DNA of 10,074 bases from Actinomycetes bacterium (lineage in GTDB: Bacteria > Actinomycetota > Acidimicrobiia > Acidimicrobiales > SZUA-35). The position numbers and the translations under genes were made by a program. Positions 331 to 9,082 of the stretch are shown here, piece after piece. The notes below the pieces were generated by a model. The model saw nothing but the letters and a program-made list of their open reading frames with translations, was not told the origin of the DNA and did not search any database. The stretch spans positions 1-10,074 of the forward strand of contig JAAETV010000268.1 in NCBI GenBank assembly GCA_024227975.1, read 5' to 3'. Position 1 is the first letter of the stretch; each line of letters begins with the position of its first letter.

Positions 331-1437
331 CTACACCTGGGTACGGCCCGACTCGATCACGACCCTGGTCTGGGCTAGTCCCTTGGCCAGGTTCGCCTCC
401 AGGGCTTCCTGATTCTCCTTGGTGCCGACCGGATACCAGCAGGCGTAGCTGTGTCCGGCCTCGTCGGCAGGAGTTAGCGTCGGCTCCTCGTGGTGGCAGC
501 GCTCTTGGGCATAGGGGCAACGGGGGCTGAAGTTGCAACCGTCGGGGGGTGAGATGAGGTCTGGGGGGCGACCCCCGATGGCTTGAAGGGCGGTGTGGCT
601 CGGATTCTCGATCTTGGGGATGGAGCGGAGCAAAGCCTCGGTATAGGGCATCTTCATATTCGAGAACAGGATGTTGGTCGGCGCCTTCTCGACGATCTTG
701 CCGGCGTACATGACGGCAATCTCATGGGTCCGACCGGCGACCACACCCAGGTCGTGGGTGACCAGGATCATGCCCATGTCCCTCTCCTCCTGGAGCTCGG
801 CCAGCAGGTTGAGGATCTGGGCCTGGACTGTCACATCGAGCGCCGTCGTTGCCTCATCGGCGAACAGGAGCTTGGGTCCGCAGGCCAGAGCCATCGCAAT
901 CGTGACCCGCTGGCGCATACCGCCCGACAACTGATGACGGTACTCCTCCAACCGTTGCTCTGGCTCGGGGATGTGGACGCTCTTCATCAGCTGCAGGGCC
1001 GTAGCCTCGGCCTCATCCCTCGGCATCTTGAGGTGCTTGCGCAAACCCTCGGTCAGCTGCTTGCCGATCTTCATGACCGGGTTGAGCGAGGTCATGGGGT
1101 CTTGGAACACCATCGACATCTCGACACCCCAGAAGTTCCGCAGCTCGGCGTCTTCCATCGCCGTGATGTCGCTGCCCTCGAAGATGACCCTGCCGGCGCT
1201 ATAGACGTTCCGCTTGGGGAAGAGCCGCATGATCGAACGCGACAACACGCTCTTGCCTGAGCCCGACTCACCGACCAGGCCGAGGGTGCGCCCTCGCTCG
1301 AGGCTGAGCGATACCCCATCGACGGCTTTCACCACCCCACGAGCGGTGAGGAAGTGGGTTCGCAGATCCTCGACTTCGAGCAGGTGCCGATTCGACTCGG
1401 TGCCTTCGGTGAACTCCGTCGATTCCACGCTGGTCAT
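331..1437 (-). CDS. OppD/DppD-type ABC transporter ATP-binding protein (first copy)
   Basis: Cytoplasmic ATPase of a peptide/nickel-family importer, 368 residues from the chosen start. Motifs in order: Walker A GESGSGKS (56-63), Q-loop Gln112 in [11 protein letters not shown], signature LSGGMRQ (170-176), Walker B LLFADE with catalytic Glu195, and switch His228. The C-terminal oligopeptide-transporter domain has Cys301, 307, 314 and 333; a comparable four-cysteine set is reported to hold a [4Fe-4S] cluster in mycobacterial OppD. The ORF extends 11 codons further up to 1470, but AAGGGGAG sits five bases before the ATG at 1437, which favours the shorter form. Odd point: the usual DEPTTALD reads DEATTALD here. 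It lies on the strand opposite its presumed permease partners and is closely similar to the protein at 7940-9082. Function is near certain; the substrate is unknown. Confidence 0.95.
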
Positions 1438-1442
1438 CCGTG

Positions 1443-1450
1443 CTCCCCTT
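1443..1450 (-). promoter_or_regulatory. Ribosome binding site that sets the OppD start
   Basis: AAGGGGAG on the minus strand, five bases before the ATG at 1437-1435. No comparable site precedes the ATG at 1470, so the 368-residue product is preferred over the 379-residue one. Confidence 0.65.
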
Positions 1451-1535
1451 GGTTGCTCGTTGGCGACCATGATCTCTGGTCAGGGTCGGGGACAGCAAAC
1501 GCCAGCTCAGTCTGGGATCGGTGCCATCACCCTGG

Positions 1536-2066: not shown

Positions 2067-3197
2067 GTGCCACGATTCATGCGCAGCGTTGGCTTCATCG
2101 CTGCCGTGAGCTGCTTGGCGGTCATCATCATCGGGTGGATCGTCGGAGCTCCGATAGCGCTGATGATCTTCGCCATGTTGGTGATCTTCACCTTCGCCGC
2201 CGCTCAGATCAGTCGCCGCTATGTCGCCTTCCGGCTGTTGTCCCTGATCCCGGTGATGCTCGCTGTCACTTTCTTGACCTTCATCATGTTGAATCTGCTG
2301 CCCGGCGACCCGGCGACCAACATCTTGGGCCAGGCCGCGACGCCGGAATCGATCGCCGAGTTCCGTGAAGTGAACCGGCTCGATGACCCGGTCGTGACCC
2401 GATACCTGAGATGGCTTGGTGATGCGGCCAAGGGTGATCTCGGTAAGTCTCCATTCCTGCAGGAAGAGGTTCGAGACGGGATTGCTCGAACCCTGCCGGT
2501 CTCCCTCCAGCTGATGATCTACGCCCAGCTCACGGCCTTGATCATCGCTATCCCGACCGGGATCTACACCGCGTATCGGTCTGGTCGGCGGGTCGACAAT
2601 CTGGTGTCGACCACGGCCTTTGGGGTTCTAGCCGTGCCGAACTTCGTCTTGGCCATCCTCTTCATCTTCTTCTTTGCCCTGGGTGGCTTCTCGTTGTTCG
2701 GGCGAGACATCGGGGCTACATTCCTGCCCGCCACCGGTCACGTCGACCTCAGCGAGAGCGTCGTCGATCACATCCGACACTGGGTGCTGCCCGTCTTGGC
2801 CCTCGGGCTCGGCCAGTCTGTGGTCTACATGCGACTGCTCCGCACTGACATGATCGCCACCCTCCAGGAGGACTTCATCAATGTGGCCAAGGCGAAGGGG
2901 ATGAGCAACCGGCGGATCCTACTGATGCACGCCCTACGGCCCTCCAGCTTCACCCTCTTGACCGTGGCCGGGGTGAACATCGGTGCCCTCGTCGGCGGGA
3001 CACTGATCCTCGAGACGATATTCAATATCCCCGGGGTCGGAACCTATCTGGCCACCGCCATCTTCCAGCGAGACTGGTTGGCGGTGCAGGGTGTCGTTGT
3101 CGTGTTGGCTGTCGGATTCGTGTTCGCAAACTTCGCTGTCGATGTCTTCTATGCCGTCCTCGACCCCAGGATTCGCAATGCTCGAGCAATCTCCTAG
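2067..3197 (+). CDS. OppB/DppB-type ABC transporter permease with extended N-terminus
   Basis: Integral membrane subunit of a peptide/nickel-type importer, 376 residues from the GTG at 2067. The family's first helix and following motif are at 56-85 (LLSLIPVMLAVTFL, then LNLLPGDPA). Later landmarks are a periplasmic segment at 85-140, helices around 147-170, 182-207, 238-258, 296-316 and 340-363, and the EAA coupling loop at about 268-293 (DFINVAKAKGMSNRR), which docks on the ATPase. The usual family start lies close to residue 50. Here residues 8-27 and 29-47 add two further hydrophobic segments, giving probably eight helices rather than six. The stop overlaps the next gene by 20 bases, so translation is likely coupled. 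Permease identity is near certain; the exact start is less so. Confidence 0.93.
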   Translation: MPRFMRSVGFIAAVSCLAVIIIGWIVGAPIALMIFAMLVIFTFAAAQISRRYVAFRLLSLIPVMLAVTFLTFIMLNLLPGDPATNILGQAATPESIAEFREVNRLDDPVVTRYLRWLGDAAKGDLGKSPFLQEEVRDGIARTLPVSLQLMIYAQLTALIIAIPTGIYTAYRSGRRVDNLVSTTAFGVLAVPNFVLAILFIFFFALGGFSLFGRDIGATFLPATGHVDLSESVVDHIRHWVLPVLALGLGQSVVYMRLLRTDMIATLQEDFINVAKAKGMSNRRILLMHALRPSSFTLLTVAGVNIGALVGGTLILETIFNIPGVGTYLATAIFQRDWLAVQGVVVVLAVGFVFANFAVDVFYAVLDPRIRNARAIS

Positions 3198-4140
3198 CGC
3201 CACCACCGACGGTCCTGAACCGCCGGCCCAGGTCGATCTCGAAGCCCTTCTCGACGAGGGGGTTTCCGGAGGCGACGAGAGCGTGTACCAGACGAAGAAG
3301 CTCGGACTCTTCTTCTGGCTCGCTGCGGCCTGGCTCGTCAGTCTGGTGCTGTCAGCGATCTTCGCTGACTTCCTACCCCTCAAGGACCCCGACGCCACTT
3401 TCGCCGGGACGTTCCGCCAGGGACCGAGTGCAGAGCACTGGTTCGGCAGCGACAATATCGGGAAGGATGTCTTCTCCCGAACGATCTACGGGGCCCGCAA
3501 GTCGCTCGGTACCGCCTTCACTGCTTCATTGATCGGGTTCGTGGTCGGAGGAAGCATCGGTCTCCTGGCCGGCTACTACCGCAAGCGGATCGAGGGCATC
3601 CTCACCGGAGGGATTGACATCCTGCTTGCCTTCCCTGCCTTGATCCTGGCTCTGATCCTCGCCCTCTTCCTCGGTGAGACCGAGCTCCCGGTGCTCAAAC
3701 AGATTGCTGGGTCACCGACCAAGGCGCTCATCATTGCGCTCGGAATCCTATCCATCCCGACCATTGCCCGTATCACCAGAGCTGGCGTGCTCGTCAACAC
3801 CGAACGGGAGTATGTCTTGGCGGCACGGACGCTTGGAGCCCGAAACCTGCGCATCATGATCCGAGAGGTTCTACCAAACGTCTTGCCAGCCATGCTGGCC
3901 TTTTCCCTGATCGGGGTGTCGTTCCTGATCATCATCGAGGCGGCACTGGCCTTCCTCGGTGTTGGCGATCTGACCAAGGCCAGCTGGGGAGTGATGATCA
4001 GTTTCGGACGAGACCGGTTGAAGGAGGCACCACACGCCGTGTTCTTCCCTGCCCTTTTCATGTTCTTGACCGTGCTATCGGTCAACTTCATCGGAGACCG
4101 GCTGCGCCAGTACTTCGACGTCCGGGATTCGGCCCTCTGA
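3178..4140 (+). CDS. OppC/DppC-type ABC transporter permease
   Basis: Second membrane subunit of the importer, 320 residues. The ATG at 3178 has CAGG seven bases upstream and overlaps the end of the previous gene by 20 bases. Longer in-frame readings back to 3091 lie wholly inside that gene and are unlikely. Residues 1-40 are an acidic cytoplasmic tail, longer than in many members. Helix 1 is at 42-63, followed by the family segment HWFGSDNIGKDVFSR (87-101). Further helices are at about 112-132, 145-165, 183-200, 236-260 and 288-305. The EAA loop is EYVLAARTLGARNLR (211-225). The last base of its stop is the first base of the next start (TGATG), the usual coupling of permease and ATPase genes. 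Nothing important is missing. Confidence 0.95.
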   Translation: MLEQSPSATTDGPEPPAQVDLEALLDEGVSGGDESVYQTKKLGLFFWLAAAWLVSLVLSAIFADFLPLKDPDATFAGTFRQGPSAEHWFGSDNIGKDVFSRTIYGARKSLGTAFTASLIGFVVGGSIGLLAGYYRKRIEGILTGGIDILLAFPALILALILALFLGETELPVLKQIAGSPTKALIIALGILSIPTIARITRAGVLVNTEREYVLAARTLGARNLRIMIREVLPNVLPAMLAFSLIGVSFLIIIEAALAFLGVGDLTKASWGVMISFGRDRLKEAPHAVFFPALFMFLTVLSVNFIGDRLRQYFDVRDSAL

Positions 4141-5504
4141 TGGCGGGCAGCGGTTCAGCTCACCTCCGCCCGCCCGACGAGTCTCTCGTCAGGGTCGAGA
4201 ACATGGTCGTGGAGTTCCCGGTCGGCAACACCGAGCTCAAGGTCCACGCCGTATCCGATGTCAGCCTCGACATCCGAGAGGGCGAGACCCTGGGACTCGT
4301 CGGCGAGTCCGGTTGCGGAAAGACCACCACCGGTCGGGCCATGATGCAGGTCCCACCTCCGACCTCTGGCGCTGTCCTCCTCGATAACCAGGATCTCACC
4401 GGGTTCGGCAATGAAGCGATCCGTGACGTGAGGGCGAAGATGCAGATGATCTTCCAGGATCCGATCTCATCACTCAACCCCCGCCGGACGATCCGCGAGA
4501 TCGTCTCGGAACCACTGGTCATCCAGTGGTTGGAGAGCCTGGGTCGCTCCAAGGTGTCGCTCCTGTGGGAGCGTTATGTCCGCTGGCTCATGCCCCTCTG
4601 GCTGAAGGCTTGGTCATACGCCCGCTTCGTGCTGGCCGTGCTCGGCCTCGGCGTCGTGTTGTGGATCATCGGTGAGGCTGGCAGCGTCAGCGCGATTTCG
4701 ACCATCTCGGCGGTGATCTGGCTGCCGGCTCTCATTGTCCTTGCGCCCTTCTTGGTCTTCTACGGGTTGACCGCCCTCGGCTGGCTGGGTCTCGCCGTTG
4801 GCATACCGTTCATGGCGGTCCCCCGGATCGTGCGAGCCCGAAGAGACAAGGAACGGTTCCGGGCTGAGACCGAAGACCGGGTTCGCCAGGTTCTGACCAC
4901 GGTAGGTCTCGATCCCGACGTCACCCTGGACAAGCGGCCCTTCGAGTTCTCAGGTGGTCAGGCCCAGCGGATCTGTGTCGCTCGGGCCCTCACTCTCGAC
5001 CCGAAGGTCCTCATCTGCGACGAGCCGGTGTCGGCCCTCGACGTCTCGGTCCAGGCTCAGATCCTCAATCTGTTGGAAGACATGAAGCGGACCTACGGGC
5101 TGACGATGGTCTTCATCTCTCATGACCTGGCCGTGGTGAAGAACATCTCCGACCGGGTTGCCGTCATGTACCTCGGCAAGATCTGCGAGATTGCCCCGCC
5201 CGATGAGTTGTACTTCAGTCCTGCTCATCCCTACAGCTCGGCCTTGATCAGCGCTATCCCGGTTCCCGATCCCCTGATCGACCAGAAAGATATCGAGGGC
5301 ATCGAAGGTGAGCTCCCCTCCCCCATTGCCCCGCCCAGCGGCTGCCGGTTCCGGACCCGGTGCCCCCATGTCACTGATCGTTGTACCGATGTGGAGCCAC
5401 AGGTCCGCCAGGTCGGGGCCGACCATTTCGTGGCCTGCCATCACCCCCTGCTCGGGAGTGACGAGTTGGCCGACACCGCCCCTTCGGCTGGAGTCTCAGC
5501 CTGA
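4140..5504 (+). CDS. OppF/DppF-type ABC ATPase with a membrane-like insertion
   Basis: ATP-binding subunit, 454 residues against the usual 320-350. Walker A GESGCGKT (55-62), Q-loop Gln106 in IFQDPISSLNPRR, signature SGGQAQR (271-277), Walker B LICDEP with Glu295, switch His328, and the C-terminal domain with Cys402, 408, 415 and 433. All catalytic residues are present, so it should be an active ATPase. The excess length lies between the Q-loop and the signature: 165 residues separate Gln106 from Ser271, against 58 in the paralogue at 9082. About residues 128-240 include hydrophobic runs at 162-178, 189-210 and 211-227, ending in a basic patch RIVRARRDKERFR. This places probable membrane segments inside the helical subdomain that contacts the permeases. 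The reading frame is unbroken and the downstream motifs are intact, so it is not a frameshift artefact. The start overlaps the permease stop (TGATG). Confidence 0.93.
   Translation: MAGSGSAHLRPPDESLVRVENMVVEFPVGNTELKVHAVSDVSLDIREGETLGLVGESGCGKTTTGRAMMQVPPPTSGAVLLDNQDLTGFGNEAIRDVRAKMQMIFQDPISSLNPRRTIREIVSEPLVIQWLESLGRSKVSLLWERYVRWLMPLWLKAWSYARFVLAVLGLGVVLWIIGEAGSVSAISTISAVIWLPALIVLAPFLVFYGLTALGWLGLAVGIPFMAVPRIVRARRDKERFRAETEDRVRQVLTTVGLDPDVTLDKRPFEFSGGQAQRICVARALTLDPKVLICDEPVSALDVSVQAQILNLLEDMKRTYGLTMVFISHDLAVVKNISDRVAVMYLGKICEIAPPDELYFSPAHPYSSALISAIPVPDPLIDQKDIEGIEGELPSPIAPPSGCRFRTRCPHVTDRCTDVEPQVRQVGADHFVACHHPLLGSDELADTAPSAGVSA
4510..4531 (+). repeat. Perfect inverted repeat at the start of the ATPase insertion
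   Basis: AACCACTGG (4510-4518) and CCAGTGGTT (4523-4531) are exact complements around the loop TCAT. The repeat is inside the coding sequence (residues about 124-131), where the OppF-type ATPase departs from its paralogue. The matching part of the gene at 9082 has no such repeat. There is no T-tract, so it is not a typical terminator. It could be a scar of the insertion, an RNA hairpin affecting translation, or chance. Confidence 0.6.
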
Positions 5505-7939: not shown

Positions 7940-9082
7940 ATGAACTCAGGGAACGCTCTCGTCGAGCGCGTAGCTCCGGCGGAGGGCGACAGTCCGCTAC
8001 TCGTGGTCGATGATCTCAGAACCCATTTTGAGATCGAGGCTGGTCTGGTCAAGGCCGTCGACGGGGTCAGCTTCTCATTGGCGAGAGGCAATACGCTCGG
8101 GGTCGTTGGCGAGTCAGGATCGGGCAAGACCGTGCTCGCACGATCCATCATGCGCCTCAACACGGCCCAGAACGCACACAGCACTGGCTCGGTCTCCTTC
8201 GATGGTCAAGAGCTCATCGGCAAGTCGCCAAGAGAACTGAGGGAGCTCTGGGGGACCGAGATGGCGATGGTGTTCCAGGATCCGATGACGTCGTTGAATC
8301 CCGTCGTACGGACCGGCCGCCAGATCACCGAACACCTCCGCTTCCACCTCCGTGTTTCAAAGGCCGAAGCAAAGACTCTGGGGATCGAATTGCTGCGTAG
8401 CGTTCGGATTCCTGAACCCGAGGCCAGGTTCTCCGCCTACCCCCATGAGCTCTCGGGTGGGATGCGCCAGCGGGTCTCCATTGCCATCGCCTTGGCTTGT
8501 GGGCCCCGCATGCTGTTTGCCGACGAGCCAACGACAGCGCTGGATGTGACGGTTCAGCATCAGATTCTGAATCTCTTGAGCTTGCAGCAGCGCGAGCGGT
8601 TCATGACCATGATTCTGGTGACCCATGATCTGGGTGTTGTCGCCGGACGCACCGACGAAATCGCAGTGATGTACGCCGGCAAGATCGTGGAGAAGGCTCC
8701 TACGAAGACGCTCTTCGCCTCGATGCACCACCCCTACACCGAAGCCCTGCTCCGATCCATCCCCAAGGTGAGCAACCCCAAGCACACCAAACTGAACGCG
8801 ATTGCCGGTCGACCACCGAGCCTGATCGATCCGCCCGCGGGGTGCTCATTCTCTCCCCGCTGCCCCTATGCCCAGCAGAAGTGTTTCGAAGAGGCACCTT
8901 CCCTGGAGGCGGCTGCTAGCCCCGGCCATGCCTTCGCATGCTGGCTGCCGGTCGGCTCGCCCGAGAACAAAAGCGCATACCAGAAGAACCTGGCCAACAA
9001 GGTGGCAGCCACTCTGGCTGTGGATGGCCGGGTGCGGGCGACCGAAGAGCTGGTCGATACCGTGACAGAGGTTGGCCACTGA
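7940..9082 (+). CDS. OppD/DppD-type ABC transporter ATP-binding protein (second copy)
   Basis: ATPase subunit of a peptide/nickel-type importer, 380 residues. Walker A GESGSGKT (57-64), Q-loop Gln113, signature LSGGMRQ (171-177), Walker B LFADEP with Glu196, switch His229, and C-terminal cysteines 302, 308, 315 and 334. It matches the OppD at 331-1437 almost throughout, including DLRTHF near the start, KIVEKAPT and the ACW(Y/L)PVG ending, but keeps the normal DEPTTALD. The frame is open back to 7793; the ATG at 7940 is chosen because GAGGA lies just upstream and the distance to DLRTHF then matches the paralogue. A GTG at 7877 is a second possibility. Its stop overlaps the next gene's ATG (TGATG), so the pair is translationally coupled. 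Confidence 0.95.

Follow-up and report, generated by a model that had tools for sequence, protein, structure and literature searches.

OppF carries a predicted membrane domain inside its motor

By analysing a stretch of 10,074 nucleotides (hereafter the window), we found that an OppF-type ABC ATPase carries, between its Q-loop and its signature, an insert that is probably a genuine inherited membrane domain, so that OppF would be an integral subunit, tethered and most likely packed against the N-terminal helices of the permease OppB. As judged from sequence and structural models, the insert is one of a recurrent family with predicted two-crossing and six-crossing forms. We also observed that OppB of the insert operons has extra N-terminal hydrophobic helices alongside the OppF insert. 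ABC importer ATPases are regarded as soluble motors, in contact with the permease via coupling helices; the conserved insert together with the added OppB helices suggests a new way to fasten such a motor to the membrane. The features of the protein and of its comparison copy are as follows.

4140..5504, forward strand: OppF-type ABC ATPase with the putative inserted membrane domain, 454 aa (PF00005 split in two; PF08352, oligo_HPY)
4455..4511, forward strand: Q106 to E124, the Q-loop and the stretch with N113 and E124 (alignment with E. coli OppF 8z21_D; available text of PMC12136057)
4521..4859, forward strand: insert, residues 128-240, between the Q-loop helix and the signature (alignment with the copy at 9082 and 34 insert-bearing homologues)
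4551..4616, forward strand: residues 138-159, amphipathic, basic, Trp-rich lower half of the first long helix (AlphaFold2 helix 138-180, hydrophobic moment)
4617..4679, forward strand: residues 160-180, predicted first membrane span (AlphaFold2, hydropathy)
4689..4814, forward strand: residues 184-225, second long helix, charge-free, with the predicted second span and a hydrophobic lower half (AlphaFold2, hydropathy, charge)
4818..4901, forward strand: residues 227-254, basic helix back into the ATPase helical subdomain (AlphaFold2, charge count)
4950..4961, forward strand: ABC signature SGGQ, residues 271-274 (alignment)
5343..5438, forward strand: C402, C408, C415 and C433, cysteine pattern of the [4Fe-4S] C-terminal domain (alignment; available text of PMC12136057)
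9082..10074, forward strand: second OppF-type ATPase, insertless comparison copy (alignment, Pfam, tree)

The gene is a single open frame and shares its first base with the end of the OppC stop codon. Its product displays, in order, GESGCGKT at 55-62 (Walker A), Q106, SGGQ at 271-274, ICDEP at 292-296 (Walker B) and H328 (H-loop), and it ends in an oligo_HPY domain (PF08352, 62.1 bits for a cut-off of 27.1) with all four cluster cysteines present. For DppF, the ligands of the cluster in the [4Fe-4S] C-terminal domain are described in the available text of PMC12136057. The protein scores below the NCBIfam equivalog cut-offs of OppF (363 vs 540 bits) and DppF (278.6 vs 660 bits), as does the insertless copy at 9082 (402.5 and 298.6 bits, respectively), and NCBIfam and Pfam describe it as an OppF-like ATPase only. 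Both copies, as well as most of the aligned relatives, share, with or without insert, a conserved N-terminal motif, MAGSG(x)AHLR.

The spacing from Gln106 to Ser271 is 165 residues in the window OppF and 58 in the copy at 9082, which bears out the prediction of about 107 extra residues made from the sequence, while the two proteins align with 60-65% identity on either side of the insert. The Pfam ABC domain PF00005 is thereby broken into two stretches. We considered a fused TMD-NBD half-transporter and ruled it out, since the membrane part splits PF00005 and since OppB and OppC are separate genes. Searches with the insert alone returned no known domain. The lone Pfam match, Exosortase, stayed below threshold (16.1 bits, cut-off 25.7) and was treated as chance, a sequence search of the PDB gave nothing at E up to 1, and a search of a plasmid collection gave no match.

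The insert recurs in independent assemblies and exists in two sizes

By using residues 110-265 of the window OppF as a query against protein clusters, we obtained 38 matches. One was the window's own fragment (P0002) and another was insertless (P0039); both were dropped. The 36 others span the whole of 110-265 at 42-75% identity, and all except P0016 and P0029 were kept for alignment. Four of the 36 bear organism labels, three Acidimicrobiales and one Actinomycetota, all of them MAGs. An identical type of insert is also present in an independent assembly, the locus L001 of an Acidimicrobiaceae MAG, with the same gene order as in the window; the match L002 covers only the flank (query residues 115-138) and was left out. 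The original prediction had named an assembly error as what would refute it and a search for recurrence in other OppF proteins as a check; the insert does recur, in the 36 clusters and in L001, and an assembly or gene-calling artefact is thus refuted. The one match that could speak for an artefact, P0039, is devoid of the insert but also of a second stretch. P0039 is an Acidimicrobiia-like OppF labelled Idotea baltica, probably a contaminant, and its gaps look like splicing by a eukaryotic gene predictor.

In the genome of L001, a second OppF is interrupted at this same site by a larger insert: 283 residues separate its Q-loop glutamine from the signature, an excess of about 225 over insertless copies. 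A search with this large insert returned at least 69 clusters including the query, 61 of which are 553-605 aa long, a lower bound because the 7996 candidates scored were those sharing most words; the matches cover 94-100% of the query piece, save one at 70%. A sub-type with 176 residues counts 9 clusters, query included. Among the 109 insert-bearing sequences that we collected, the lengths cluster at 165 (29 sequences), 176 (10) and 283 (52). Once deprived of its ATPase flanks, the profile of the small insert scored 27.8-39.3 bits against the six large inserts tested and 46.9-51.8 bits against two inserts of the sub-type, which are relatives of two profile rows. The window OppB, OppC and EamA, used as controls, all scored below 0, and 200 shuffles of the L020 insert reached at most 8.5 bits. 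Since the scores are well above those of the controls, the small and the large inserts form one family.

The insert was found in at least 2 of 395 genomes in a sample of the class, in 6 of 39 in the family of L001's genome, in at least 7 of 298 in the order with the large-type profile and in at least 2 of 148 in the order of G003 with the small-type profile, the centre genome being counted each time; the sample of the phylum (at least 2 of 396) gave the same pair as the class. As at most 8-10 candidates per genome were scored (class, order with the large-type profile, phylum), or 27 for the order of G003, and as each profile mainly detects its own type, these counts are lower bounds. As far as seen, the insert is a minority trait of one class. 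The large form is also recorded in Ca. Poriferisodalaceae (P0097), a family within Acidimicrobiales.

The models predict an even number of membrane crossings

In the small type, three 19-residue hydropathy maxima (family means of 1.97, 1.52 and 2.39, compared to at most 0.98 elsewhere in the protein) coincide with the three hydrophobic runs noticed at the outset. The window OppF also holds a charge-free run of 49 residues (180-228), while the longest such run in its 9082 paralogue is of 15 residues; upon shuffling the window OppF 2000 times, the longest run was 20.8 residues on average and 48 at most. Hence, the window OppF is predicted to depart from the soluble, span-free state that is usual for ATPases of the OppF/DppF type.

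AlphaFold2, run with an alignment of 38 sequences, folded the window insert into two long helices (138-180 and 184-225) followed by a third one (227-254), with block pLDDT values of 88-94 over 141-240 and 84-86 over 121-140. The model of the whole protein is middling (mean pLDDT 73.4, pTM 0.66, 33 for the Walker A block), and how the insert sits on the motor should therefore not be read from it. In the model of the large type there are six spans (160-180, 186-236, 242-266, 270-295, 301-322 and 326-371), with block pLDDT values of 68-91, a mean of 76.5 and a pTM of 0.67. Hydropathy maxima alone number 3 in the small type and 7 in the large one. A topology with three crossings was rejected, because the maxima are odd in number and the models merge two of them into a single helix, and because with 3 or 7 crossings the chain could not get back to the cytoplasm, whereas the models show 2 and 6, respectively. 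For the window, AlphaFold2 joins runs two and three in the continuous helix 184-225, so that two crossings are expected. The original prediction is supported on this point: its even number of crossings agrees with the models and with the in-out-in pattern of hydropathy and charge, and its three runs are there, two of them being merged in the model.

Charge distribution points to the same topology. Over 37 rows, the small type averages 5.3 and 6.0 K+R on its cytoplasmic flanks and only 0.3 in its outer turn, which is a few residues long in the model (181-183). The return flank is the basic patch already proposed as a cytoplasmic return, with 5.97 K+R per sequence on average in residues 228-241. 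Over 38 rows, the large type has 4.1, 1.4, 1.8 and 6.5 K+R in its successive inside segments and 1.7, 1.2 and 1.2 outside. The small type therefore fits the positive-inside rule clearly, whereas the large type does so only at both ends, its inner loops being barely more basic than its outer ones. Together, these data support an insert predicted to span the membrane an even number of times and to come back to the cytoplasm via a basic segment.

We weighed these data against a water-soluble helical bundle or a pair of helices lying on the surface without spanning the membrane. Helix 1 is amphipathic in its first half, with a hydrophobic moment of 0.45-0.51 in 18-residue windows starting at 138-144 (0.41 being the protein's 95th percentile), and AlphaFold2 takes no account of the membrane, which leaves room for such a bundle. 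Yet the 49-residue charge-free run, family-mean hydropathy values of up to 2.39 in the small type and 2.69 in the large type, helix lengths of 42-51 residues, the four further spans of the large type and the positive-inside pattern of the small type all argue the other way, and we hold the soluble alternative to be very improbable.

The insert evolves faster than the motor but under constraint

The insert has a mean pairwise identity of 0.52, while the two parts of the ATPase reach 0.83 and 0.89. Between the window and L001, the 115 codons of the insert differ 42, 27 and 53 times at codon positions 1, 2 and 3, and the 115 codons following it differ 12, 6 and 50 times. W143, W154, W175, G178, P203, W215 and R234 are each at least 90% conserved in the small-type alignment. 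Constraint at the protein level is thus weaker in the insert, yet real. In the outer loop of the large type (38 rows), S177, E178, A179, E181, R183 and E186 are at least 90% conserved, and W191 and P195 fully so. The faster change of the insert would also suit a passive anchor.

OppB of the insert operons has extra N-terminal helices

In the window and in L001, OppB, OppC and OppF are co-directional and OppD is divergent; the window thus encodes B, C and F with a divergent D, while A, B, C, F and D stand together in relatives.

331..1470, reverse strand: OppD-type ATPase, insertless, 59 residues from Q to signature (frame and domain analysis)
2079..3197, forward strand: OppB permease, 372 aa from the ATG at 2079, with an in-frame ATG upstream at 1989 (NCBIfam, Pfam)
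2079..2216, forward strand: extra N-terminal pair of hydrophobic helices of OppB (hydropathy; outside the matched OppB models)
3178..4140, forward strand: OppC permease, start set at the Met of MLEQ (same 20-base overlap with OppB in L001)

The window OppB matches PF00528 (BPD_transp_1, 131.1 bits) and PF19300, the N-terminal domain that goes with it (39.7 bits), with residues 1-45 outside both, and those NCBIfam and Pfam models that reach its N-terminus start only at residue 46-52. We compared 57 OppB proteins. Searches of 12 genomes gave 75 matches, of which 50 were examined (9 at insert loci, 41 in 40 further loci) and 25, partial or weaker, were left out; the window and six more insert loci completed the set, made of 15 main OppBs of insert operons, one second OppB (L014) and 41 from insertless loci. 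An OppB was scored as extended when at least one 19-residue segment with a hydropathy of at least 1.6 lay in the 110 residues before the core. By this rule, the extension is present in 14 of the 15 insert operons, absent from the second OppB of L014 and present in 1 of the 41 proteins from insertless loci. The latter, at L079, has a single segment lying in the upstream read and was rejected by eye as a helix pair, which leaves 14 of 15 against 0 of 42.

The number of segments varies among the extended OppBs. Those of L018 and L019 pass with one, their second stretch reaching 1.15 (in the scanned part of L018) and 1.49 (L019), while those of L014 and L017 have four. The cores of OppB share 48-53% identity between the window and other insert types, and 85% with L001, so the pairing of insert and extension has been kept across a large divergence. 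At the insertless loci, 33 of the 40 show at least one ATPase in the stretch examined, and the Q-to-signature spacing is 55-65 residues in 48 of 49 ATPase domains, the exception being L080 (106).

Insert-bearing ATPases and extended permeases each form a clade

The ATPase tree groups 108 of the 109 insert-bearing sequences in a single clade (support 0.914), which is split into a large type (65 sequences, 0.749) and a small type (43 sequences, 0.884). The insertless group that includes the 9082 copy is sister to it (0.983). Likewise, the 14 extended OppBs form one clade (0.997). Clustering of the ATPases at 90% identity reduces the 15 insert loci to 11 groups, one of which is L099-L103. As both traits are clade-bound, their co-occurrence is a correlation and not a proof; for the same reason, we do not count a Fisher test on the table 14,1/0,42 as evidence of independence. 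The co-occurrence may reflect a single joint gain, kept afterwards.

The exception among the 15 insert operons is L020 (L020:7868-10339), where an OppF with a membrane-like insert is fused in one frame to OppD and where OppB is without extension. We do not count this insert as a third form within the family, because it scores 7.6 bits against the small-type profile whereas the best of 200 shuffles scores 8.5; its E-value of 5.2e-13 was obtained with the ATPase flanks included. Its OppF lies outside the clade made of the insert-bearing ATPases and their insertless sister (0.936), but in the OppB tree its permease branches as sister of the 14 extended OppBs (0.892). We thus make no claim that OppF gained its insert before OppB gained its helices, since this order rests on the OppB tree and the two trees disagree.

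These data bear on whether the insert could be a passive hydrophobic element, sitting in the membrane at a tolerant site and adding nothing essential. The site does take other inserts, as in the OppD-type frame L080:2062-3678, whose spacing of 106 residues comprises about 48 extra ones with a hydropathy maximum of 0.86; the insert is the fastest-changing part of the protein; and a sister OppF clade, including the 9082 copy, does without it. Against this, no insertless ATPase from whole genomes, which were sampled regardless of the insert, falls inside the insert clade, although losses are under-sampled, 94 of the 109 insert-bearing sequences having come from searches with the insert itself. 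Moreover, the lengths cluster at 165, 176 and 283, the tryptophans and the other residues listed above are conserved, and codon positions 1 and 2 change less than position 3. We therefore regard a passive element as improbable.

The insert probably lies beside the coupling contact

According to the available text of PMC12136057, the partner of DppF in the E. coli Dpp importer is DppC and not DppB, the contact with DppC involves N113 and E124 of DppF, and the helical subdomain turns by about 20 degrees upon closure. In the window OppF, N113 and E124 occur in the same motif, with the same 11-residue spacing, and are invariant in a 37-row alignment. From this spacing, and with E. coli OppF aligned, we infer that they are the equivalents of the DppF contact residues (PMC12136057, available text). 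The insert would thus start about 3 residues past the counterpart of the DppF glutamate that contacts the coupling helix of DppC. Given this site and the turn of about 20 degrees, the anchor would sit on the moving part of the motor, adjoining the coupling contact, which fits the earlier placement of the insert in the helical subdomain that touches the coupling helices (alignment; PMC12136057, available text).

We propose that the chain leaves the ATPase in one long helix (138-180), crosses the membrane and comes back in the other (184-225), which would keep both halves of the motor cytoplasmic. By homology with DppF-DppC, as covered in the available text of PMC12136057, the base of the insert would adjoin the groove for the OppC coupling helix. 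Within the membrane, the insert would pack against the extra N-terminal helices of OppB. The motor would then be permanently tethered and would have a second mechanical link, by which the turning of the helical subdomain at ATP-driven closure would reach the permease. The six-crossing form would be an enlarged version of this two-crossing device.

In type I permeases, the first helix packs against the partner permease. The N-terminal helices of OppB would therefore lie near OppC, hence near OppF, which favours OppB as docking partner. Conversely, the pairing of DppF with DppC instead of DppB (PMC12136057, available text) counts against docking on OppB, and so does L020, with its insert and unextended OppB, against a pairing of the insert with OppB helices. 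The full proposal is that, in a lineage of Acidimicrobiia, the ATPase of a type I importer is itself a membrane subunit whose two or six helices dock on the added helices of OppB, forming a second, in-membrane transmission path beside the coupling helices; we advance it tentatively, as slightly more likely to be wrong than right in this complete form.

Alternatively, the insert could be a membrane domain devoted to sensing or regulation, contacting a lipid, an ion, a peptide or OppA via its outer loops, instead of serving as tether or coupling element. The large type lends this some weight: its outer loop is conserved and acidic (the first outer loop averages 4.95 D+E and 1.74 K+R), and its four extra spans exceed what an anchor needs. 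But the outer turn of the window type amounts to residues 181-183, and no sensor or channel family was matched, either in Pfam, where the large insert of L014 had no match and the small one stayed below threshold, or in the PDB, searched with the small insert alone. Sensing thus seems unlikely to us, and the tether packed against OppB remains the reading that we prefer. If true, it would offer a natural experiment on the share of coupling borne by the coupling-helix contact, and it would bear on the means by which a heteromeric importer matches each ATPase to its proper permease. It would also mean that the helical subdomain is able to host a membrane domain predicted to have two or six spans, and the predicted contact between OppF and OppB helices within the membrane is directly testable.

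Comparison with known ATPases

The best fold match in the PDB, and one of the best sequence matches, to the window OppF is OppF/DppF of the E. coli OppBCDF (8z21) and DppBCDF (8z1v) complexes. The proteins share Walker A, the Q-loop, the signature, the four-cysteine oligo_HPY domain and, in relatives of the window, an operon with OppB, OppC, OppD and OppA. By contrast, the solved E. coli chains are of 333-334 aa, have neither the 107- nor the ~225-residue insert, and are cytoplasmic, held by coupling helices. Among actinobacterial peptide-importer ATPases, OppD Rv1281c (8j5q) and DppD (8wd9) of M. tuberculosis have two consecutive ATPase halves per chain, according to the available text of PMC12136057. 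Rv1281c is the best PDB sequence match, and in its second half no more than about 8 residues (465 to 473) separate the parts that align to the two sides of the window insert. The Mycoplasma OppF model NF043078 (649 positions) also has much extra sequence before the signature, residues 248-384 of the window OppF aligning to model positions 473-608; its cut-off was passed by no control genome.

Domains added between Walker A and the signature are found in ABCF proteins (the Arm), in UvrA and in Rad50/SMC (the coiled coil), but these are soluble and serve in ribosome or DNA work, not as membrane anchors. Permeases of the MalF type have an extra N-terminal pair of membrane helices before a six-helix core, as OppB does here, while MalK is without membrane insert; we know of no permease extension that is paired with an ATPase insert. 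No membrane insert in OppF was described in the open-licence PubMed Central papers that we searched, and the source annotations of the homologues, where given, read oligopeptide/dipeptide ABC transporter ATP-binding protein or similar.

Gene content around the insert operons

No OppA was seen in the 10,074 nucleotides of the window; if present, it lies outside. A small protein with a hydrophobic N-terminus is encoded at 1536-1910 on the reverse strand; it matched no Pfam family above cut-off and shares 42% identity with a neighbour found at the same place in L001. In L019 (L019:10607-12290), OppA of the insert operon is in two overlapping frames, perhaps owing to a frameshift in the assembly or in the gene. 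L014 (contig C13 of G001) is a compound operon, A'B'C'-A-B-C-F(insert)-D, where the upstream second OppB/OppC pair is without N-terminal helices and a further ATPase match (L109) lies just beyond. Finally, the five genomes of L099-L103 have two consecutive OppA genes before B-C-F(insert)-D.
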